Positions 47,422 to 59,917 of a DNA stretch of 64,000 nucleotides are shown here, in pieces. The position numbers and the translations under genes were made by a program. Origin of the DNA: Veillonella tobetsuensis (GTDB taxonomy: Bacteria; Bacillota; Negativicutes; Veillonellales; Veillonellaceae); the NCBI RefSeq assembly GCF_001078375.1, contig NZ_BBXI01000007.1:1-64000 (forward strand), given 5' to 3'. Position 1 is the stretch's first letter, and each line of letters opens with the position of its first letter. The notes beneath the pieces were generated by a model, which saw only the letters and a program-made list of their open reading frames with translations, ran no database searches and was not told the origin of the DNA.

Positions 47422-48762
47422 ATGGTGCGCCTTAAAATTGCTGCTATAGCAGCATCAATTATGACAACTACGTGCTTGACAGCTTATGCTGCGGATTTAA
47501 CCGGTGTTCGCGTATCGGATTATGATGGAACCAGTCGTATCGTCTTTGATATGTCTGAATTACCATTGTCCTGGACTAAGTCCTACAATGCTAGTCAAAA
47601 TACGGTTACATTGAATTTAGCTAATACTACTAATAAAATTTCAACTGCTGCAGAGCGTACAACAAATAAGGCTGGCATGTTGAAAAGCATGTCATTTCAG
47701 AATACGAATAATGGAGTGCAAGTCAAGTTAGCCGCCAATCAAGCCGTTAATTATCATGCCTTTACACTAGCGAATCCAAATCGTTTGGTAGTAGATATAT
47801 TCTCAGATTATAGTCAGAAAACAACCAAACATGTAGGCTCGTCGATTCAGACTGCAAATATTAAAACCTCTGTTAAGGAAGGTCTGATACAAGCTTATGC
47901 AATGACTGTAAATAGTGATGCGCCAATGGTTGTATCCTCCGTATCCGGCGGTAAGACTTTGGATGCTATTTCACAGCCTCATATTGCTTCTGTAGGTTTG
48001 ACTCTACCTGGCAAAAGCTTTAATCAACCTTATTCTGTTAGTGCTAATGGGGAAGTAGATTTAAGTCGAATTCAGTCGGTAGGGGTCCTTCGTTATACCC
48101 CAAGTAGAGGCTATTTTATAGAAGAGAAAAAGCCTTTGTTACAGGCGAAAACTCCAAAAACTACGCTGGTGATTACTGCTGTCAATGGTCCGCGTAGGAA
48201 TAATGCGTTGACCTTGTATACACCAAGTTATGGTAAAAGTACAAAAACAAATGACTTTGGTTATGAAGTAACGGTTAGTGCAGGCAAGATATTGAAGGTT
48301 GGTACAGGGAATTCCATATTAGGTACGAATCAATTTGTTCTGTCCGCTCATGGAGAGGCTATTCCTTCTTTAAAAGCTTTAAAGGTAGGAACTCCTGTTA
48401 CTTTACAACCTAGATCGGAGTTGGCAAAGGTTGATACGGCTGGTGGAGCTATGGTCGAAGGTGGTACATTAATTTTGTATAATGATCATTATGTGGGATC
48501 TGACAGTTCGACTAATAGTCGACGCAGTTTTATTGGAACCACAAAGGATGAAAAGCTTGTAGTAACTACTGTAGATAAACAGAATGCGTCTTCTGTAGGT
48601 GTCACTTTGGAGGAAGGGGCAGATTTACTTAAATCCTTAGGTGCTATTAATGGATTTGAATTATCTAACCAAGGTAGTGTTGATATTAACGTTGATGGTC
48701 ATTATGTTCATAAGGAAAAGGAAACACCGACAGCTTATGAAAAAATTTTGATTATTAAATAA
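47422..48762 (+). CDS. Exported AMIN-domain protein with degenerate phosphodiester-glycosidase (NAGPA-like) domain
   Basis: A 446-residue exported protein. A signal peptide (1-24, cleavage near AYA-AD) is followed by an AMIN domain (26-130: VRVSDYDGTSRIVFDMSELP, PNRLVVDIF), which in relatives binds peptidoglycan or places envelope proteins. The C-terminal half aligns by eye with the NAGPA family: NGPRRNNALTLYTPSYGKST, QFVLSAHGEA, RRSFIGTTKDEKLVVTTVD, VTLEEGADLLKSLGAINGFE. However, the usual DGGGST catalytic/metal segment reads LSNQGSV, and the usual VDGRQ reads VDKQN, so it is probably an inactive, structural or binding version. It has its own promoter, just upstream of the Mla-associated genes. 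The family call is from recalled motifs, not a search. Confidence 0.75.
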   Translation: MVRLKIAAIAASIMTTTCLTAYAADLTGVRVSDYDGTSRIVFDMSELPLSWTKSYNASQNTVTLNLANTTNKISTAAERTTNKAGMLKSMSFQNTNNGVQVKLAANQAVNYHAFTLANPNRLVVDIFSDYSQKTTKHVGSSIQTANIKTSVKEGLIQAYAMTVNSDAPMVVSSVSGGKTLDAISQPHIASVGLTLPGKSFNQPYSVSANGEVDLSRIQSVGVLRYTPSRGYFIEEKKPLLQAKTPKTTLVITAVNGPRRNNALTLYTPSYGKSTKTNDFGYEVTVSAGKILKVGTGNSILGTNQFVLSAHGEAIPSLKALKVGTPVTLQPRSELAKVDTAGGAMVEGGTLILYNDHYVGSDSSTNSRRSFIGTTKDEKLVVTTVDKQNASSVGVTLEEGADLLKSLGAINGFELSNQGSVDINVDGHYVHKEKETPTAYEKILIIK

Positions 48763-48811: not shown

Positions 48812-48847
48812 AATTTTATGTATTCTATTGTAAAAGGAGGGATCGTT

Positions 48848-49132
48848 ATGAAAAAGATCTTATTAGCCTTCGCTGCGTTAACAGCTTTGGGCGTTACTTC
48901 TGTAATGGCGGCCCCTGTATCATACCAAAGTGTATTAACAGGTAAAGTTGCCTCTACTGTTGCTGTTGGAACTTCTGTTACAGAAGGTCAAACACTAGTG
49001 ACTGTAGAAACATTGGCAGGTCCTATGGCAGCAGCTAAATCCACAGTGAATGGCACTGTGACTGCAGTTGATGTCACAGTAGGTTCGGATATTTCTCGTG
49101 ATCAAGTCGTTGTCACTGTAGAAAGCAAATAA
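48848..49132 (+). CDS. Small exported biotinyl/lipoyl-like domain protein
   Basis: A 94-residue protein with a signal peptide (about 1-22, VMAA) and a single domain resembling the biotinyl/lipoyl carrier barrel: two half-repeats with VLTGKVASTVAVGTSVTEGQ and VNGTVTAVDVTVGSDISRDQ, the typical G-x-V...V-x-x-G-x-x-V pattern. The hairpin that normally carries the modified lysine (EAMKM or DK) reads ETLAGPM, with no lysine there, so covalent cofactor attachment is unlikely. In the periplasm such a fold could act as an adaptor, as in membrane-fusion proteins. AAAAGGAGGG precedes the ATG. It is 11 nt before the S55 gene. The function is unknown. Confidence 0.72.
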   Translation: MKKILLAFAALTALGVTSVMAAPVSYQSVLTGKVASTVAVGTSVTEGQTLVTVETLAGPMAAAKSTVNGTVTAVDVTVGSDISRDQVVVTVESK

Positions 49133-49143
49133 AGGAGATAGGA

Positions 49144-51144
49144 ATGAAGTTTTCTCATTCTTGGCGTCGGTATAGAAAAACGATACTGGCGCTTTTCTTC
49201 TGTAGTGCTCTATCATCCGCACAGGCAGTAGATTTTATGCCTGTTCAAGATGTACAGACTGGTATGGAAGGTATAGCAAAAACAGTAATAGTAGGGGATA
49301 CCATATCTAACTTTGATGTCAAGGTATTAGGGGTCATGAAGGATAAAGGCCCATCGGGACATTTGATTTTAGCAAAATTCTCTGGTCCTGTTATGGAACA
49401 GACTGGAGGTATTGCACATGGTATGAGTGGTAGTCCAGTATATATAAATGGGAAACTCGTAGGTGCCGTAGCGTATGGTTGGGGCTTTGCTGATGGCACA
49501 ATCGGCATGATTACACCTATTGAAGATATGGTGAAATTATGGAATATACCATACGAAAAGAATTTGACTAACACATGGTCTGATAAACAATTAATTCCCA
49601 TGAAAACACCATTGATGGCATATGGCTTTGATAAGATGGCTATGGATTATTTTAAATCCAAATTGCCACAATATAATTATGAGACCTATGACACTGCTAG
49701 CTCTAGTAGTGATGATATTGAAAAACCATTAGAAGCTGGTGGCTCTGTAGCAGCATTACTCGTTGATGGCGATTTAAAATTAGGGGCTATTGGCACTGTT
49801 ACCTATGTTGATGGAAAACAGATGGTGGCCTTTGGTCATCCGTTTTTAAAGCATGGTTCTGCTAATTACTTTATGCATAATGCAAGTATTTTTACCGTTG
49901 TTAAAAGTTATGAATCTGCTTTTAAACTAGGTTCTATGGGTCGTGAAGTGGGCACTGTTACAGAGGATCGTGGTGCAGGTATCGCTGGTGTTTCAGGAAC
50001 TATTTCAAGCGGTATTCCTGTACGTTTCCATCTTAAGGATATCGACATGGGACGCGATAAGCGCTCTAATGTAAAGGTCATTGAAGATAAAGAGATGACC
50101 CCTACCTTGGCGGCTACAGCATTATATAATATGCTGAATAAAACCTTGGATCGTAGTGGTGAAGGGACTGCTAAAATTACCTATACCATTACACCAAAAA
50201 ATAAGGAACAAAAGCCATTAACGCGGACGAATATGTTCTATAGTTCTGACTCGATTAGTGAAAAAACTGTTGATGAATTTTACAATGTTATCGATGTACT
50301 TATGAATAACCGTTTTATTAACTATGAAATCACAGATATTAATGTTGAAATAGAGATTACACAAGATAAGAAAACCGCGAAACTGGTAGATGCATCAGCA
50401 TCATCGACCATCGTATCACCTGGTGATACAATAGTAGTTGATGTTACATTGGAACCTTATCGTGGGGAAAAAATTAACAAAGAGGTATTCTTTGTGGTAC
50501 CAAAAGATCAACCACTCGGTAAATACACCTTAGAGGTTCGTGGTGGCGGTGAAATCCCACTACCATATATTTTGGAAAAACAAAAATACAATTTAACCGA
50601 TGAAATATTGCGTCGTTTAAAAGTTTACAAAGATTTTGATGATTTGTTTGATGAATTACAAAAGACAGATACAAATAATCAGATCGTTGTAGAGATTTTG
50701 GAAGATGGCATTAGCCTTGTCAACGAAGAAGCGTCTACTAAATCCGTGAAAAAGGCAAAACTTCAAGGTGTTGAAGATAAGCCAAGTCCGGGAGACGTTA
50801 AAAAGAAAAAAGATAACGAAGACCTTGGGGATGGCAAGGATGATGATAAGAAAAACGATAAAACTGCTGTAGACACAGAGTATATCGTGCAAGGTGATGG
50901 TCAATTTACTATTCATGTTATGAGCGTTAAAGATCGTGATAAAGCACTGGCTAAACGCGCTAAAGAACAAGTTAAGATGGAACATAAGTTGGAATTAGAA
51001 GATCAAAGTAATAAAAAAACTACTAAATCTTCTCAATCTACAAAGGATAAACCAGCGAAAGAAAAACCTTCAAAGGAAGATCCATCTAGTAATAAACCAT
51101 CTACAGACAAACCTGCTAATGATTCATCAGAACAAGAGGCATAG
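49144..51144 (+). CDS. Exported SpoIVB/S55-family peptidase-like protein with charged C-terminal tail
   Basis: A 666-residue exported protein. After a signal peptide (about 1-29) comes an S55-like region with the serine motif AHGMSGSPVY (91-100) followed by YGWGFADGTIGMITPIEDM, and later GTVTYVDGKQMVAFGHPF with a histidine at 232. SpoIVB-type S55 peptidases use a His/Ser pair with the GMSGSP serine. Here the serine motif precedes the FGHP histidine, which may be a variant or permuted arrangement. Residues 300-480 form a beta-rich domain; from about 530 the chain is low complexity, rich in Lys, Asp, Glu and Ser (KPSTDKPAND near the end). No sporulation genes are near, so the role is in the envelope. 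It sits 28 nt before mlaE. Confidence 0.75.
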   Translation: MKFSHSWRRYRKTILALFFCSALSSAQAVDFMPVQDVQTGMEGIAKTVIVGDTISNFDVKVLGVMKDKGPSGHLILAKFSGPVMEQTGGIAHGMSGSPVYINGKLVGAVAYGWGFADGTIGMITPIEDMVKLWNIPYEKNLTNTWSDKQLIPMKTPLMAYGFDKMAMDYFKSKLPQYNYETYDTASSSSDDIEKPLEAGGSVAALLVDGDLKLGAIGTVTYVDGKQMVAFGHPFLKHGSANYFMHNASIFTVVKSYESAFKLGSMGREVGTVTEDRGAGIAGVSGTISSGIPVRFHLKDIDMGRDKRSNVKVIEDKEMTPTLAATALYNMLNKTLDRSGEGTAKITYTITPKNKEQKPLTRTNMFYSSDSISEKTVDEFYNVIDVLMNNRFINYEITDINVEIEITQDKKTAKLVDASASSTIVSPGDTIVVDVTLEPYRGEKINKEVFFVVPKDQPLGKYTLEVRGGGEIPLPYILEKQKYNLTDEILRRLKVYKDFDDLFDELQKTDTNNQIVVEILEDGISLVNEEASTKSVKKAKLQGVEDKPSPGDVKKKKDNEDLGDGKDDDKKNDKTAVDTEYIVQGDGQFTIHVMSVKDRDKALAKRAKEQVKMEHKLELEDQSNKKTTKSSQSTKDKPAKEKPSKEDPSSNKPSTDKPANDSSEQEA

Positions 51145-51172: not shown

Positions 51173-51934
51173 GTGAATTGGCTTGAGTTGATAGGCCGTA
51201 ATGTGATAACGGGGCTATCTAATGTGGGAACGGCCATGTTACTTATATGGCAAACCATAAAACAATTAAAAATGCTTAATATATGGCATGTTCTACAGCA
51301 AATGGCTCATTTAGGTGTAGATTCATTGCCTATCATTAGTCTTACCTTGTTATTTGCCGGCGGTGTAATGACACTACAAATTACTGATGTTCTTATTACA
51401 TATGGAGCACAAAGTACGGTTGGTGGTCTTATGGCGGTAGCTATGGGACGTGAACTAGGACCAATTCTTGTAGGTGTTGTATTAGCTGGTCGTGTGGGGG
51501 CAGCTATTACAGCAGAGATTGGAACCATGAAGGTAACAGAACAAATCGATGCATTGCGTGTTATGGCTGTAGATCCAATCGGCTACCTAGTGGTACCCCG
51601 TGTTGTAGCTTGTATGATTATGGTGCCAATCCTTGCCTTTTACGGTGTTGCAATTGGTATTGCAGGGGGGTATTTTGTAGCTACAGCTATAAAAGGGTTA
51701 GCCCCTGCTACATATTTAGATTCGATACAGATTTTTTCAACTGTTTCTGATTTTACATTAGGCTTAATTAAATCTAGTGTTTTTGGGGCGGTTATTGCTC
51801 TTGTAGGTGCTTACAAGGGGATGCATACCAAGATGGGGGCAGAGGCGGTAGGTTTTTCTACTACTAGTTCTGTTGTGACTAGTATCATATTGGTGTTTGT
51901 ATTAAACTATTTTCTATCGACACTACTCTTTTAA
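51173..51934 (+). CDS. mlaE: MlaE-type lipid ABC transporter permease
   Basis: The 253-residue permease of an MCE (Mla) lipid transporter in the inner membrane. The family core is clear: FAGGVMTLQITDVLITYGAQ, REFG-like GRELGPILVGVVLAGRVGAA, ITAEIGTMKVTEQIDALRVM, and GAVIALVGAYKGMHTKMGAEAVG. Five or six hydrophobic helices are present. The start is GTG at 51173 after AGGGGGA. It forms a complex with MlaF (ATPase) and MlaD. In this organism the complex would move phospholipids between inner and outer membranes; direction is not readable from sequence. Confidence 0.93.
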   Translation: MNWLELIGRNVITGLSNVGTAMLLIWQTIKQLKMLNIWHVLQQMAHLGVDSLPIISLTLLFAGGVMTLQITDVLITYGAQSTVGGLMAVAMGRELGPILVGVVLAGRVGAAITAEIGTMKVTEQIDALRVMAVDPIGYLVVPRVVACMIMVPILAFYGVAIGIAGGYFVATAIKGLAPATYLDSIQIFSTVSDFTLGLIKSSVFGAVIALVGAYKGMHTKMGAEAVGFSTTSSVVTSIILVFVLNYFLSTLLF

Positions 51935-51958
51935 TCGATTATCTCAAACGAGGGCTAT

Positions 51959-52717
51959 ATGATTGAATTACGTGATGTAGTTGTAGCATATGATACACGG
52001 GTGATATTAGATTCTGTAAATTTAACTATTCAAGATGGAGAAACACTCGTTATTTTAGGCGGTAGTGGTAGTGGTAAAAGTACCCTATTGCGTCTACTCA
52101 TAGGTTTACAACGACCAACATCAGGCCAAATTATTGTTGATGGTGTAGATGTCACTACATTATCAGAGGAAGAATTTAATAAGGTACGCCAGAAGATGGG
52201 CATGGTATTTCAATATTCCGCACTTTTTGACTCTATGTCGGTAGGCGAGAATGTAGCTTTTGGTCTCAGAGAGCATACGACATTAAGTGATGATGAAATT
52301 ATGCGAATTGTTAGTGAAAGACTCGGATGGGTTGGGCTAAGCGGATATGAATCCTATATGCCTAATGAGTTATCAGGGGGGATGAAAAAGCGCGTCAGCC
52401 TAGCTCGTGCGATTGCCCTTGACCCAACGCTTATCTTGTATGATGAGCCATCATCAGGCTTAGATCCTATTACATCTGGTACAATTAGCATGCTTATACG
52501 AGGTATGCAAGAACGTTTAGGATGTACATCTATTGTTGTCACCCATGATATGCAATCGGCTTTTTATGTAGCTGATCGCATAGCATTACTTGATAAAGGA
52601 CAGTTTATTGAGGTATCAAAAACAGAGGACTTTAAACATTCACCTAATCCTAAGGTGCAACAATTTATTCATGGTGAAGCGGAGGCTATTGATATCGTAA
52701 CAAGGAGAGACATATAA
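51959..52717 (+). CDS. mlaF: MlaF-type lipid ABC transporter ATPase
   Basis: A 252-residue ATPase partner of MlaE. Motifs: Walker A GGSGSGKST, Q-loop MVFQYSALFDSMSV (the Tyr/Ser variant typical of MlaF), signature LSGGMKKR, Walker B LILYDEPSSGLD and H-loop VTHDM. The C-terminal extension in MlaF that contacts MlaB is short here, and no mlaB gene is present. TAATG overlap couples it to mlaD. The gene order mlaE-mlaF-mlaD is standard. Confidence 0.94.
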   Translation: MIELRDVVVAYDTRVILDSVNLTIQDGETLVILGGSGSGKSTLLRLLIGLQRPTSGQIIVDGVDVTTLSEEEFNKVRQKMGMVFQYSALFDSMSVGENVAFGLREHTTLSDDEIMRIVSERLGWVGLSGYESYMPNELSGGMKKRVSLARAIALDPTLILYDEPSSGLDPITSGTISMLIRGMQERLGCTSIVVTHDMQSAFYVADRIALLDKGQFIEVSKTEDFKHSPNPKVQQFIHGEAEAIDIVTRRDI

Positions 52718-53976
52718 TGAAGTGGACGACGGAAGCTAAAGTAGGGGCTTTCACAATTGTAGGGGTTGTGTTGTTTATAATGGGCATCCTATTTGTAGGG
52801 CGCGTTGATATATTTACAAAACCACAAATGACAATAACAGGGGATTTTGCTCAGGTAAATGGTCTAAAGAATGGTAATCAGGTTAAATTTTCCGGTGTTG
52901 CTATCGGTAGCGTTTCCGATATCGAGATTACTCCTTCTGGCGTTGTGGTAAAGATGAAAATTGATGATAAGACACAAATACCAAGTGACTCAAGGTTTAC
53001 CTTGGGATCTGACGGATTTTTAGGCGATAAGTATATTCAAATCTCACCAGGTAAATCTACTGTATATTTACAAAATGGAGATTCTGTTAAGGGTGAAGGC
53101 GTTGATGCGATGGACCAAGCCATGCAAAGTGCTCAAAAATTAATGGCCGGTACAGAGCAAATGCTACAATCCATCAACAATATAATTGGAGACCCTAAAA
53201 CGCAAGATGCATTAAAGCATTCTTTGCAATCTACAGCTATTATGGCTGATAATGCAGTAGCAATGACACAGAATATGGCGGATGTAACAGCTCAGTTGAA
53301 CCAAGCGGCTCAACAATTCAATGCCGATGGCAATGCTGGGGAGGATATGCGTCAAATTCTAACAAATATAAAACAAACTACAGAGCGTGTAGATAATATG
53401 GCTCGCTCTATGGAAGGCACTGTTACAGATCCTAAAGCACAAGAGAATTTAAAAGAAACGTTGCATAATACGGCGCAAATTTCTGCGCGTGTCAATAAAT
53501 TGATGGGTGGTAAGGCATATCAATCCGATGCAACATATAGTGGCTCGGAGGTAAATACAGCTGAAAAAAAGTCATCTATTAAAGTAGAACCTTCGGTGGA
53601 TTTGCTTTATAATACAAACAAAGATGAAGCTCGTGTCAATGGTCGTGCCCGTATTTACACAGACAAAGGAATGGGCGAGTTTGGACTTTCCAATATTGGC
53701 GATGACACTAAATTTGATCTAAATGGTGGCAAATATTTTGCTTCTAAATGGCTAGTACGAGGTGGTATTTTTGAAAGCAAGCTCGGATTTGGCATAGACT
53801 ATAATCCTCGTGGGCCTTTTGCTATATCTGCTGCTATGTATGATTTAAATCATCCTAAATATCGACTTCGCTCTGATATACGCTTACATAATAATACATA
53901 TGGTGTTGTGCAGATGACACGTCCATTTGGTTCTTCCAATGGTGGCACCTATTTTGGTATTAAACAAGTCTTTTAA
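52717..53976 (+). CDS. mlaD: MlaD with long helical linker and C-terminal outer-membrane beta-barrel
   Basis: A 419-residue MCE protein, much longer than E. coli MlaD (about 180). Residues 8-28 are a membrane helix; 37-113 the MCE domain (ITGDFAQVNGLKNGNQVKFS, LGSDGFLGDKYIQISPG). Residues 125-268 are helical, with a duplicated segment (GDPKTQDALKHSLQSTA at 158-174 and TDPKAQENLKETLHNTA at 237-253). Residues 285-419 are alternating, aromatic-rich strands (SVDLLY, GRARIYT, LGFGIDY, RSDIRLH) ending in the terminal Phe (GIKQVF), the pattern of an outer-membrane beta-barrel. One chain could thus link MlaEF in the inner membrane to the outer membrane. No mlaA or mlaC is nearby, which fits. A barrel-bearing MlaD of this type has, to my knowledge, been reported in Veillonella parvula. 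Confidence 0.9.
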   Translation: MKWTTEAKVGAFTIVGVVLFIMGILFVGRVDIFTKPQMTITGDFAQVNGLKNGNQVKFSGVAIGSVSDIEITPSGVVVKMKIDDKTQIPSDSRFTLGSDGFLGDKYIQISPGKSTVYLQNGDSVKGEGVDAMDQAMQSAQKLMAGTEQMLQSINNIIGDPKTQDALKHSLQSTAIMADNAVAMTQNMADVTAQLNQAAQQFNADGNAGEDMRQILTNIKQTTERVDNMARSMEGTVTDPKAQENLKETLHNTAQISARVNKLMGGKAYQSDATYSGSEVNTAEKKSSIKVEPSVDLLYNTNKDEARVNGRARIYTDKGMGEFGLSNIGDDTKFDLNGGKYFASKWLVRGGIFESKLGFGIDYNPRGPFAISAAMYDLNHPKYRLRSDIRLHNNTYGVVQMTRPFGSSNGGTYFGIKQVF

Positions 53977-54002
53977 AACACATATTGTGTGGAGGTATAC
54001 GT

Positions 54003-55469
54003 ATGAATAAGAAGGCCTTTTCTTTAGCCGTAATATTATCTATGGCTACAACAGGTGCATTCGCAAGTGACGTTGTTTCTACATCTGTCAATAATGGTGA
54101 TAAACTCACTAAACTTCAAAAAGAAGCCATTCAATTAACTCAAAAACAATTAGCCCAAAAATCAGTACAAGATGCACAACGCTATGAATCCTCTATTTCT
54201 TTAAATGAAGAAAGTACTGTTGATTTAGCATTGGCAAACAATCGTACTGCTAAGCAAACTATGTGGAGCTATCAGGCAGCAAAAGCAGCCGTAAGCACAG
54301 CTGCTGCTGGTAAAAATCCATCTCTTGCCTATAGTTGGGGTGGCAAACGCTCTGGTGGCGATGCAGGTAGTAGTAAAAATGGTAATCATAACTTTACGAT
54401 TTCTGCGCCTGTATTTAGTCCGTCTTTAGATGCTAGTATTGATGCTTCTAGATATACGCGTGAAGGCGCTGGTGCTGCATATGAAGAATCTTTACAACAA
54501 GCTAAATACGATGCTATTAATGCTTATTACTCCTTGATTATGTATCGTAATAAGACCGCTGTAGCAAGACAAGCTGTTAAGGATTACCAAGGTCATGTAG
54601 ATAATGTTAAAGCTCAATATAATGTGGGTTTAGTAGCTAATTCTGATGTATTAGGTGCAGATACAAGCTTGGCAGAGGCTCAAACTAGTCTTGTAAAAGC
54701 TATGAATGCAGCTGATTTGGCTGAGGCTAGCTTGAATCAAGTTATTGCATACCCTGTACAAACAGCTATTACTACGGCAGAAGAAAGTTTACAATATAAA
54801 CCATACGATGTGTCTTTAGAACAAGCTAAAGCGTATGCGATGCTTCATCGTTCTGCGCTAGTTCAATCTGCTATGGCAGTTAAGGCGGCAGAAGAAAACT
54901 TAAAAGCTGCAAAATCTGGTTACTTACCAACGATAGATGTAGAAGCTGGCCGTGGTTATACTGATCTAAATGGGTACTTTGGTACCGATGTTAAATCCTG
55001 GCATATCAGTGCATCTGCAACTTGGAAACTCTGGGATGGTGGTGCTACACAAAATAAAATCAAAGGTGCTTATGCAGATTTAGAAAAAGCTAAAGAAGCT
55101 AATTTGGCAACTGTAGATAAGGTAAATCTTGCAGTGCAACAGGCTTATCTAAATTTACGCACTGCAGAACAAACAATTCAAAGTACACAAACTGCTGTTA
55201 ATGAAGGACAAGAAAACTTCCGTATTGCATTACTTCGTTATAGAGCAGGGGTAGGCACTAACCTTGATGTACTTGATGCGGAATTAAAATTAACACAAGC
55301 ACGTAATAATTATGTTGATGCTCTTTATAGCTATAATGTAAGTGTTTCTGCTCTTGAACAAGCTACAGGTGTCCCTGTTGATACTCCAGTTGGTCAAGGT
55401 GCAGCTATTATCGCTAATAGTGGTGCAGAAGCACAACTAGCAGCTTTAAGTGCTAGTGCAAAAAAATAA
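54003..55469 (+). CDS. tolC: TolC-family outer-membrane efflux/secretion channel
   Basis: A 488-residue outer-membrane factor: signal peptide (about 1-21, ending GAFA), then long helices and strands in two repeats. Typical segments are VDLALANNRTAKQTMWSYQAA, the ALA-rich helical stretches, SYTRE-like strands, VGLVANSDVLGADTSLAEAQ and RYRAGVGTNLDVLDAELKLTQARNNYVDALY, all characteristic of the OEP/TolC fold. In Veillonella a TolC next to mlaEFD and tamB suggests an envelope role, export of a substrate or helping the lipid path; this is not decidable here. The ATG at 54003 follows GGAGG; an upstream ATG (53985) lacks a site. A weak terminator follows. Confidence 0.93.
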   Translation: MNKKAFSLAVILSMATTGAFASDVVSTSVNNGDKLTKLQKEAIQLTQKQLAQKSVQDAQRYESSISLNEESTVDLALANNRTAKQTMWSYQAAKAAVSTAAAGKNPSLAYSWGGKRSGGDAGSSKNGNHNFTISAPVFSPSLDASIDASRYTREGAGAAYEESLQQAKYDAINAYYSLIMYRNKTAVARQAVKDYQGHVDNVKAQYNVGLVANSDVLGADTSLAEAQTSLVKAMNAADLAEASLNQVIAYPVQTAITTAEESLQYKPYDVSLEQAKAYAMLHRSALVQSAMAVKAAEENLKAAKSGYLPTIDVEAGRGYTDLNGYFGTDVKSWHISASATWKLWDGGATQNKIKGAYADLEKAKEANLATVDKVNLAVQQAYLNLRTAEQTIQSTQTAVNEGQENFRIALLRYRAGVGTNLDVLDAELKLTQARNNYVDALYSYNVSVSALEQATGVPVDTPVGQGAAIIANSGAEAQLAALSASAKK

Positions 55470-55512: not shown

Positions 55513-55627
55513 TGGATATAGATATTTATATTTCATAAAATTTATGCATCATATACTATTGTAATATTATTGTTTATGGTAAGATTGATGTATAAATTAT
55601 CGTATTTTTTTAGGTGTGGGGTTTCCT

Positions 55628-58600
55628 ATGACAAGGAAAAAATGGTGTCTTATTGGTGCAGCTGTTTTAGGTCTGGGCGTAGCAGGAGTGGCTACGACAA
55701 TCAATCCTATTGCACAACAATATGTAGCACCCATGGTACAGGAACAACTACATAAAACAGTAAGAGGCACCATCCAATACGAATCTATGCATATAGCATG
55801 GAATGGAGATGTGGAACTACAGAATGTTACAGTTCGAGATGAACAAAATCATTTGGTCGCAACCGTTCCAACAATGGCAGTGTCTTTGAAATGGATATCA
55901 ATACCATCTATTCTACAAGGGTCTTCTCAGGGATCCGCTATCGTGTCCACAATTACTATGGAACGACCTGAAGTTCACGTATGGCAATTAGCCGATGGAA
56001 CTTGGAATGTAAATTCTTTAGTTGTGTCGACGCCTAAGAGTAATAAGAAATCCTTTGATGGGAACATTGTTGTTAATGATGCTACAGGTATCATTCGATT
56101 TAAGGATGGTAATGTACATAGACTTACAAAATTGGATGGCAATGTTGCGTTGAATTTAGATGGTATGTCAAAAGGGGCTTTGAATGGTTTGCTTGATAAT
56201 CATTCCTTTGCTCTTAATGGTTCTGTAGATATGAATAAAACAGAGGATTTTGATCTTTTCGTACAAGCGGATATGGTTGATATCTCTGGCTTTATGAATC
56301 TTGTGCCAATAAAGAAAAATATATCTATATCTAAAGGTATATTGCATGATGTGAAAACCCAAATTAAAGGGCGAGATGGGGCCTATACGATGGCGGGAAG
56401 CCTCTCCTTTGATGGTGTTAACGGATCCTATAAAGATGGAGCATCTACGTATACGATTACCGAAGGGAATGGACGTATATTTTTCCAAAATAAAAATATC
56501 TTAATCAGCCAAAGTAAATGGAATGTAAACAATCAAGCTGTAAAACTTAACGGCTTGGTGACATTAGATGATAAAGTAGGATTAAATCTTAACGCTGTAG
56601 CAGATTCTGTAGCATTAGAGGCTTTCACGGAAAATCAAATTAGTGGTACTGTTGGCGGACGTGTTCATATTGGTGGTACTAGTGTTGACCCTTATGTGTC
56701 TGGCACTATTAAGAGTAGTGGTTTTTCTTATGGGGACTACCACATTGATAGCGGAGATGCAAATATTGCTTATTATAATAGTACATTAGATATCCGTGAT
56801 GCTACATTATATGTTGGTCGCGGTAGTGTAAAAGCTAAGGGTCAATATAATTTTGATAGTGGTGATTTTTCTGTGGATAGCACCATTCACGATGCAGAAA
56901 TTGCTTCATTTACACAGAATTTATCGTATCCTGTATCTGGTGTGATGAATGGTAGAGTTCTTGTTAATGGTAAAAATAGCATTATTACTGTTATAGAAGG
57001 CGATGTTAGAGGTTCTAATATCGTTTCCAGTGGTGTTGCAGTGGACTCAGCACAGGCTACGTTCCGTAAGTCCGGCAATCACACTGATGTGGCTGTTGTT
57101 GGTGATATGGGAAATGGTAAGATTAGTGGCTATGGCACTATAGAAGGAAATCAGTTAAATTTATCTTTATCCGCAGATTCCATTGATGCAACTAGCTTTA
57201 ATGGTTTTATTGGAAATGGTTTAGCTGGCACGCTTACGGGCCATGCACTTGTAACTGGAGATATAGATAATGTATCGGTAGAGGGGCGCATTACTAGTCC
57301 TGAAATAATTTATAATGGCAGTCGTTTGAACTCGATTAATGCGGGCTTTACAATAAAAGACCATGTTTTAGATTTGCAAGATGCCTCTATTGGTGATGGC
57401 GATGGTGCTTTCACAGTTAATGGTACTTTGAATTTGAAATCTAAAGCTTTATCTATGCGTGCCCGTGCAAAGGCAGTTCGCATAGAAAATCTTATTAGGC
57501 CATTTAGCAATATACCGATTACAGGCTGGTTTGAATCTGAAAATGATATTCATGGCACCTTAGATAATCCATATATTCAAGGTCATTCTCGTTTATATGA
57601 TGGTTCGTATAATGGCAAATTAATTAGTGACGCTAATTTTGACTATACATTAAAAGATAAGGTACTTACACTATCAAACTTTACCGTTCAAGGTTATGGT
57701 GCTATTATTCGTGGCTCTGGTACCGCATCAGAGTCAGTCTTAGATATTAATTTAGACGGTAAGGATATAGATATAGGTCGCTTGTTAGTCAATACAGATT
57801 ATAATGTGAAAGGTTATGTACAAGCAAAAGGCCATATTGGCGGTTCCTTATATAATCCTAATTTTAATGGAACTGTAACCTCTAATCTGCTCGTAATCAA
57901 TGGAGAGGGGATTAGCAATGTAGATGGCACGATTTATGCGGATAAAACCGTTATCAATCTAGAAAACTTTGGTTTTGATGAAGAAAATGGTGGCCGATAT
58001 ACGGCACGGGCAGGTATGTCGCTCGTAGGGGATAAGCGTCTATTCGGAACTTTGCAAATTACCAATGGTCGTGTATCCAATCTTTTGGCATTACTTGGTA
58101 AACCAGTAGATACATTAGATGGTTCTTTGAGCGGAACCGTTGATTTAGGTGGTACTTATAATAATCCGAACATTAATGTAGTAGGTTCTATCAACAATGT
58201 ATCTATAGATGACAAAGTGGTAGGAGATGCAAAAGTTGATGTAGCTTTAGAAAATCGTAAATTTAAAATTCGTACATTAAAGTTACCTGTTGATGATGGT
58301 CTTGTTGCAGCGGGCGGTACAATTGATTTGGATGGCGATGCAGATTTACAAATTGCTGTTCGCGATGTTGATATCAAGCCATTCTTGCCTCTTATCGGTA
58401 AGGATATTAAAGCTACTGGTTCCGTTACAGGCGTTATTAATATGACAGGAGCTACGAAAAATCCTAAGGTTGAACTCTCTGCAAGTTTAGCGAACGGATC
58501 TTATAATGGGATTGACATAGATCAAGGCTTTGTATTGGCTACCATGCAAGATCATGTTATCAATGTCCAACGTATTCAAGGTGCAAAAGGGGATTATAAG

Positions 58601-59917
58601 CTAAGTGTTTATGGAAGAATCCCGCTAGCTGCTTTATATACTACAGGATATCTTGATGCTAATGATTCTAAAGCTATGGATATGACTGTTGATTTCAATG
58701 AAGCAGGTATGGCTGTTATCCCACTCGTTACTGATACTGTTCAAGATGCAACAGGTGCGCTGAAAGGTGTCGTTCATATAACCGGAACTCTAGACCAACC
58801 ACAGGCGTATGGGACTGTATCTGTTCGAAACGGTACCATGAAGATTAAGAGCCTTGGCAATGACATTAAAAATATTGATGGCGATTTGATTTTCTCAGGT
58901 CAACAAGGTGACTTCCAGTCTCGTATATCTATGGGGAAAGGTTCTGCAGGGTTAGCGGCTAAGATTAACTGGACAGGACATACGATGACTAGCTATCGTA
59001 TGGCGGCTCAGTTAGAAGGACTTAATATAGCCAATGAATATGTTGATGGACCTTTAAACGGTGAACTCTACATAGCAGAAAAAGATGGAATTCCAACACT
59101 TATGGGGAATTTAAATTTAGAGAATATTAAATTTAAGATTCCATTGGCTCTTGAGTCTAGTGAAAGTACTCGTAATATAGGGATTGATGTTAATGTTCAC
59201 GCTGGTAAAAATGTGCGTCTCTATGACAAAACCTTGTATAATATGCAAATTAAAGGAGATGTTCATTTTGGAGGCTCTGTTTTCGAACCTTCTGCTAGTG
59301 GTCAGTTTAATGTGGTGAGTGGTACCTTTAAATATCTAAGTCATACTTTTGATATTAATAAGGGGACCGCTACCTTTGCAACAGGGTCTTACTTGCCGAT
59401 GCTTCAAATTGAAGCCGATACAAATGTGGGGAACTATAATATTAGCCTGGGTGTAAAAGGCACTGTGGACCATATGGACTTAACGCTTAAGTCAGAACCA
59501 GCACTATCACGGAAACAAATCATTTCCATGTTAACCTTTGGTCGTGGCGAGCCTTCGAATAGTAGTACTATTACAAATGAAGATGCGAATGCTTTGGCTG
59601 TGGCTAGTGCGCAAATGTTTGCTTTTGGCTATGTACAAGATGCAATGAAAAATGCATTGGGCCTAGATCGTGTGAATATTACAACAGGATCGATTGATCC
59701 TAATGAACCGACTAGTAAGGAAACTGCGGGGAATTATAACATTGAAATTGGCAAGTATGTATTGCCAAGAACGATGATTACCTATACACAGGGAATCAAT
59801 AATAAGCAAAACAAATATGGTATTGAATATTCGTTAAGACGAAGTGTTAAATTTAATGCTTGGCATACATCACAGGGTAGTACATACATTGGTGGTCGTT
59901 GGACACGCGAGTTTTAA
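55628..59917 (+). CDS. tamB: TamB-like AsmA-family envelope bridge protein
   Basis: A 1429-residue protein anchored by one N-terminal helix (about 6-26) and otherwise composed of repeated beta-strand units (DGVNGSYKDGA, SGYGTIEGNQL, IGGSLYNPNFNGTVTS and many similar), the lipid-groove (bridge-like) architecture of TamB/AsmA proteins. The C-terminal DUF490/TamB domain starts near residue 1000 and ends in RRSVKFNAWHTSQGSTYIGG, a likely barrel-contacting end. In diderms TamB pairs with TamA/BamA and moves phospholipids or helps outer-membrane proteins. Here it is the gene before bamA; there is no tamA. The ATG at 55628 is after GGTGTGGGG. Confidence 0.9.
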   Translation: MTRKKWCLIGAAVLGLGVAGVATTINPIAQQYVAPMVQEQLHKTVRGTIQYESMHIAWNGDVELQNVTVRDEQNHLVATVPTMAVSLKWISIPSILQGSSQGSAIVSTITMERPEVHVWQLADGTWNVNSLVVSTPKSNKKSFDGNIVVNDATGIIRFKDGNVHRLTKLDGNVALNLDGMSKGALNGLLDNHSFALNGSVDMNKTEDFDLFVQADMVDISGFMNLVPIKKNISISKGILHDVKTQIKGRDGAYTMAGSLSFDGVNGSYKDGASTYTITEGNGRIFFQNKNILISQSKWNVNNQAVKLNGLVTLDDKVGLNLNAVADSVALEAFTENQISGTVGGRVHIGGTSVDPYVSGTIKSSGFSYGDYHIDSGDANIAYYNSTLDIRDATLYVGRGSVKAKGQYNFDSGDFSVDSTIHDAEIASFTQNLSYPVSGVMNGRVLVNGKNSIITVIEGDVRGSNIVSSGVAVDSAQATFRKSGNHTDVAVVGDMGNGKISGYGTIEGNQLNLSLSADSIDATSFNGFIGNGLAGTLTGHALVTGDIDNVSVEGRITSPEIIYNGSRLNSINAGFTIKDHVLDLQDASIGDGDGAFTVNGTLNLKSKALSMRARAKAVRIENLIRPFSNIPITGWFESENDIHGTLDNPYIQGHSRLYDGSYNGKLISDANFDYTLKDKVLTLSNFTVQGYGAIIRGSGTASESVLDINLDGKDIDIGRLLVNTDYNVKGYVQAKGHIGGSLYNPNFNGTVTSNLLVINGEGISNVDGTIYADKTVINLENFGFDEENGGRYTARAGMSLVGDKRLFGTLQITNGRVSNLLALLGKPVDTLDGSLSGTVDLGGTYNNPNINVVGSINNVSIDDKVVGDAKVDVALENRKFKIRTLKLPVDDGLVAAGGTIDLDGDADLQIAVRDVDIKPFLPLIGKDIKATGSVTGVINMTGATKNPKVELSASLANGSYNGIDIDQGFVLATMQDHVINVQRIQGAKGDYKLSVYGRIPLAALYTTGYLDANDSKAMDMTVDFNEAGMAVIPLVTDTVQDATGALKGVVHITGTLDQPQAYGTVSVRNGTMKIKSLGNDIKNIDGDLIFSGQQGDFQSRISMGKGSAGLAAKINWTGHTMTSYRMAAQLEGLNIANEYVDGPLNGELYIAEKDGIPTLMGNLNLENIKFKIPLALESSESTRNIGIDVNVHAGKNVRLYDKTLYNMQIKGDVHFGGSVFEPSASGQFNVVSGTFKYLSHTFDINKGTATFATGSYLPMLQIEADTNVGNYNISLGVKGTVDHMDLTLKSEPALSRKQIISMLTFGRGEPSNSSTITNEDANALAVASAQMFAFGYVQDAMKNALGLDRVNITTGSIDPNEPTSKETAGNYNIEIGKYVLPRTMITYTQGINNKQNKYGIEYSLRRSVKFNAWHTSQGSTYIGGRWTREF

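Follow-up and report, generated by a model that had tools for sequence, protein, structure and literature searches.

The closest described system is MlaEFD of Veillonella parvula SKV38, in which mlaEFD is followed by tolC and tamB, neither MlaA nor MlaC is present and MlaB has no counterpart (Grasekamp et al., 2023, Nat Commun 14:7642, PMC10665443). The MlaD of this species has 419 residues and contains a transmembrane (TM) segment, an MCE domain, a helical region and a ten-stranded barrel. The isolated barrel was found to fractionate with the outer membrane and the TM-MCE part with the inner membrane, and the modelled hexameric tunnel measured about 23.5 nm, compared with 24.2 nm for the periplasm. 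The mla mutants were sensitive to SDS/EDTA and hypervesiculated about 17-fold, their vesicles were enriched in PE, and the loss of tamB suppressed the loss of mlaD; from these data the authors inferred retrograde transport (PMC10665443). The lipid evidence is indirect, consisting of TLC of vesicles together with the phenotypes. Barrels were reported in about 10% of the MlaD sequences across diderms, and MlaEFD was proposed as the ancestral form (PMC10665443).

In our study, an orthologue of this system was found in the sister species Veillonella tobetsuensis, in a window of 64,000 nucleotides (contig NZ_BBXI01000007.1, positions 1–64,000); the system itself is already known. The initial annotation of this DNA had cited V. 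parvula as a precedent and called the architecture known in outline; the precedent holds, and the wording was too weak for a 419-aa ten-stranded orthologue that has been characterised (PMC10665443). The present locus adds the conserved charged inward face of the barrel, a duplication in the bridge, and class-wide conserved S55 and lipoyl-like neighbours. The system matters in that no shuttle protein may be needed for the return of lipids from the outer membrane, and in its hint at an ancestral Mla machine; both arguments are already in print for V. parvula (PMC10665443), and this locus adds one species.

Gene content of the mla locus

The mlaE, mlaF and mlaD genes were found together, at the position where they had first been annotated (Table 1). 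The best NCBIfam match of the mlaF product, MlaF PRK11831, scored below the equivalog cut-off, and its closest solved relatives were the A. baumannii MlaF chains. The stop codon of mlaF and the start codon of mlaD overlap by one base (TAATG). The tolC gene starts 8 bp past the end of mlaD, in the same order as in V. parvula, and 28 bp lie between the end of the S55-domain gene and mlaE. Scans for sigma-70 promoters and terminators gave results at or below the level of chance. MlaD was found to be 89% identical to that of V. atypica and 81% identical to that of V. parvula SKV38. Against the NCBIfam model TIGR04430 (OM_asym_MlaD) it scored 95.3 bits, below the curated cut-off of 135 bits; judged by this sequence match, MlaD is homologous to the members of that family yet lies outside the equivalog.

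Table 1. Genes of the mla locus and parts of MlaD, with positions in the window
Feature	Position	Strand	Evidence
SpoIVB/S55-domain protein, 666 aa, neighbour	49144-51144	+	PF05580; synteny; GMSGSP motif
mlaE, lipid ABC transporter permease, 253 aa, GTG start	51173-51934	+	PF02405 E 7.6e-76; TIGR00056 above cut-off
mlaF, ATPase, 252 aa	51959-52717	+	PF00005; closest NCBIfam MlaF PRK11831
mlaD, 419 aa, long MlaD with inner-membrane helix, MCE domain, helical bridge and predicted outer-membrane barrel	52717-53976	+	PF02470 E 4.4e-20
MlaD membrane helix, residues 5-32	52729-52812	+	AlphaFold2; fits TM+MCE of solved MlaD chains
MlaD MCE domain, residues 37-127	52825-53097	+	PF02470; AlphaFold2 strands
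MlaD helical bridge, residues 131-263 (133 residues)	53107-53505	+	AlphaFold2
MlaD C-terminal ten-stranded barrel (predicted), residues 289-419, terminal Phe419	53581-53973	+	AlphaFold2; fold comparison; strand alternation
TolC-family outer-membrane protein	53985-55469	+	PF02321; synteny; PMC10665443 Fig. 1 legend
TamB, AsmA-like envelope-spanning protein, 3' of tolC	55616-59917	+	PF04357; synteny

Domain organization of MlaD

Full-length MlaD was modelled with AlphaFold2 from an alignment of 12 sequences. The model reproduced the order read in the initial annotation, namely a membrane helix, an MCE domain, helices and strands ending in Phe (residues 5–32, 37–127, 131–263 and 289–418, followed by Phe419), with ten strands in the last part. 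The helical stretch had been put at about 140 residues; it is present and was found to contain 133. The MCE domain aligned to that of E. coli MlaD (5uw8) with a VIA-align Z of 16.9 and an rmsd of 1.5 over 94 residues. Because the helical bridge reached a pLDDT of 38–57 in the monomer model, which is low confidence, the putative tunnel, its length and its hexameric form are inherited here from the V. parvula modelling.

A unit of 28 residues was found to occur twice in the bridge, as EQMLQSINNIIGDPKTQDALKHSLQSTA and DNMARSMEGTVTDPKAQENLKETLHNTA, at about residues 147–174 and 226–253 of MlaD (53155–53475), with the shared core D-P-K-x-Q-x-x-L-K-x-x-L-x-x-T-A. The repeat score was 59, the mean of the shuffles was 25, and none of 2000 shuffles reached the observed score. 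The bridge was about 25 residues longer in V. magna-like species and shorter by about 20 or more residues in some relatives (loci L011, L012–L017, L018, L019 and L058). The length of MlaD ranged from 360 to 444 aa across the class, and that of TamB, in complete or nearly complete sequences, was nearly constant at about 1,385–1,458 aa. The co-variation of the two lengths was considered as a gauge of periplasm width and dropped, as TamB stayed nearly constant while MlaD varied, which gave no usable correlation. Matches of the bridge to STAT coiled coils were set aside as long-helix look-alikes at low model confidence.

The predicted C-terminal barrel

A fold search with the whole model of MlaD returned mostly MCE matches, headed in Foldseek by Mce1 chains, and the barrel was therefore folded on its own, using the C-terminal 140 residues with 33 homologues from across the class. 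The isolated prediction contained ten strands, with a mean pLDDT of 93.1 and a pTM of 0.84, so the barrel-like C-terminus first proposed from the letters was upheld by structure prediction, as opposed to a soluble fold. The best Foldseek match was a designed ten-strand transmembrane barrel. A second aligner placed the omptins at the top, Pla with a Z of 14.2 and an rmsd of 2.7 over 132 of 140 residues and OmpT (pOmpT) with a Z of 11.9. Pfam contained no family for the barrel of this MlaD. An omptin Pfam match was found in none of the 33 barrels, the likeness to omptins being one of fold only, and Porin_4 was matched weakly by two of the 33.

The alternation of polar and apolar residues along the strands was 3.13, compared with 1.63 ± 0.36 in shuffles, none of 5000 of which reached the observed value. 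The outward residues were apolar, and the inward residues were rich in Arg, Lys, Asp, Glu, Gly and Tyr. The inward face was also more conserved, with an entropy of 1.62 bits versus 2.11 bits for the outward face, and the C-terminal Phe was retained in nearly all class orthologues examined. The C-terminus of MlaD is confidently predicted to be an outer-membrane-type barrel with a filled core, and by inference it would not be a pore of lipid size. It is probably a plugged anchor or docking part and not a lipid conduit, because a phospholipid would not fit through a single ten-stranded barrel. That the inward face is charged and conserved likewise speaks for a plugged anchor and against a lipid pore. 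This agrees with the published remark that the V. parvula barrel has too little width to let a phospholipid pass (PMC10665443), and it sharpens the choice between an anchor and a part of the lipid path.

Proposed mechanism and its alternatives

With a probability of roughly 90%, we consider the three-component MlaEFD of Veillonella to be a bridge with an outer-membrane barrel anchor, most likely retrograde, that replaces MlaC and MlaA. By homology, six MlaD chains would stand on an inner-membrane MlaE2F2 ABC transporter, with the MCE domains forming a ring and the helical regions a tunnel across the periplasm. The predicted ten-stranded barrel of each chain would fix the bridge to the outer membrane, taking the place of the MlaC shuttle and of MlaA. 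Stray phospholipids of the outer membrane would most likely be drawn back to the inner membrane by ATP hydrolysis in MlaF, and TamB, the product of a neighbouring gene, would offset this retrograde flow in the anterograde direction. The earlier suggestion that one chain could do the work stands as far as a transenvelope MlaD is meant; it must be read as a hexamer of MlaD on MlaEF, in which the barrel is likely an anchor.

In another arrangement, one larger pore would arise from the opening or fusion of several MlaD barrels, as in the trimerisation of TolC, so that lipids enter the bridge through the wall or the lumen of the barrel. The monomer is predicted with high confidence as a complete ten-stranded barrel resembling the closed omptin barrels, and its charged and conserved inward face is like a filled core, which makes such a pore unlikely even though one barrel is present on each of the six chains and the V. 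parvula authors, while doubting a hexameric ring of barrels, raised a fused trimeric barrel as an option (PMC10665443). The direction of Mla transport was disputed in the literature (PMC10665443), and MlaEFD might instead export phospholipid to the outer membrane; this anterograde reading appears improbable, since the loss of mla in V. parvula enriches PE in the vesicles and is suppressed by the loss of TamB, an anterograde candidate (PMC10665443). The retrograde direction, which rests on V. parvula genetics and is opposed by TamB, is the most likely one; the direction of lipid flow had been singled out in the initial annotation as a point of interest, and it had already been addressed genetically in V. 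parvula, where the results point to retrograde transport (PMC10665443). It is highly improbable that the domain is a periplasmic barrel of the lipocalin or FABP kind, soluble and not embedded in the membrane. Although the soluble barrels BFA1, DUF3598 and FABP also align to the MlaD barrel (Z 7–12), soluble lipid-binding barrels show the opposite of its apolar outside and charged inside, the terminal Phe is conserved, and the isolated V. parvula domain goes with the outer membrane on fractionation (PMC10665443).

Distribution of MlaD and absence of MlaA, MlaB and MlaC

The lack of MlaA, MlaB and MlaC noted in the window was found to extend to the whole genome (2.16 Mb, 47 contigs, rated 100% complete). 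Profile searches for the MlaA lipoprotein (PF04333), the MlaC carrier (PF05494) and the MlaB STAS subunit (STAS_2, PF13466) found none of the three in this genome, whereas the E. coli control matched each profile, and without them the system is not of the E. coli six-component type (MlaA-F). The only STAS domain of the genome was rejected as an MlaB candidate, being part of a 580-aa SulP-type sulfate permease. The genome contained one MCE protein and one MlaE.

Orthologous MlaD was found in 148 of 150 sampled genomes of the class Negativicutes, mostly as full-length matches, so the architecture is not due to chance. MlaA was present in none of the 150 genomes, and MlaC was above the cut-off in none. 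A single sub-threshold MlaC match, of 20.6 bits, was found in genome G137. The matching reading frame encodes a lipoprotein-like protein of 209 aa (locus L064, 2702–3331); its neighbours are recO- and glyQ-like genes and not those of mla, and it is unlikely to be MlaC. The examined loci, drawn from the family up to the class, retained the order mlaE-mlaF-mlaD-tolC, followed by tamB in most of them.

Upstream neighbours of mlaE

The S55 gene was found to precede mlaE in nearly all class loci examined. Its 666-aa product in the window (49144–51144) bears the GGIAHGMSGSPVY motif. The SpoIVB/S55-domain neighbour is not mentioned in the main text of PMC10665443. A 2017 outer-membrane proteome paper described the V. 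parvula SpoIVB-domain protein Vpar_0521 as conserved and with a possible outer-membrane role (PMC5491611), and Vpar_0521 is very probably the counterpart of the S55 gene upstream of mlaE. A small exported protein of lipoyl/biotinyl fold, with a signal-peptide-like start, is encoded at 48818–49132, and in most of the class loci examined S55 is preceded by a lipoyl-like gene. Where the usual biotinyl-Lys site aligns, the protein in the window has GPMAAAKS; it is probably not biotinylated, because the Lys is not conserved and is often Arg in relatives. The same run of envelope genes encoded, at 47422–48762, a protein whose start resembles a signal peptide and which contains AMIN and NAGPA (phosphodiester glycosidase) domains. 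The S55 and lipoyl-like proteins could serve the MlaEFD bridge as dedicated partners, for example in assembly, anchoring or quality control; we regard this as quite unlikely, and if true, the system would exceed three components.

Comparison with known systems

The locus resembles that of V. parvula SKV38 in the order mlaE-mlaF-mlaD-tolC-tamB, in the 419-aa MlaD with ten barrel strands, in the overlapping mlaF and mlaD genes and in the absence of MlaA, MlaC and MlaB. It differs by ordinary species-level divergence only, the MlaD found here being nearest to that of V. atypica. With the MlaFEDB-MlaC-MlaA system of E. coli and A. baumannii it shares MlaE, MlaF and the TM and MCE part of MlaD, whereas the E. 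coli MlaD has 183 aa and is devoid of the bridge and the barrel, and E. coli uses the MlaC shuttle, an MlaA-porin complex and MlaB, all absent here. The mycobacterial Mce1A-1F and the E. coli PqiB and LetB are likewise MCE proteins that span the periplasm, with a helical tunnel in Mce1 and PqiB. However, Mce1 is a heterohexamer in which each chain contributes one strand to a small barrel, PqiB and LetB contain several MCE domains per protein, and none of the three has a complete barrel per chain as predicted for MlaD here. The omptins (Pla and OmpT) share the ten-stranded outer-membrane barrel fold, whereas their identity over the barrel is 9–14% and the loops of MlaD are much shorter; a protease function is not implied, and the resemblance lies in the fold.
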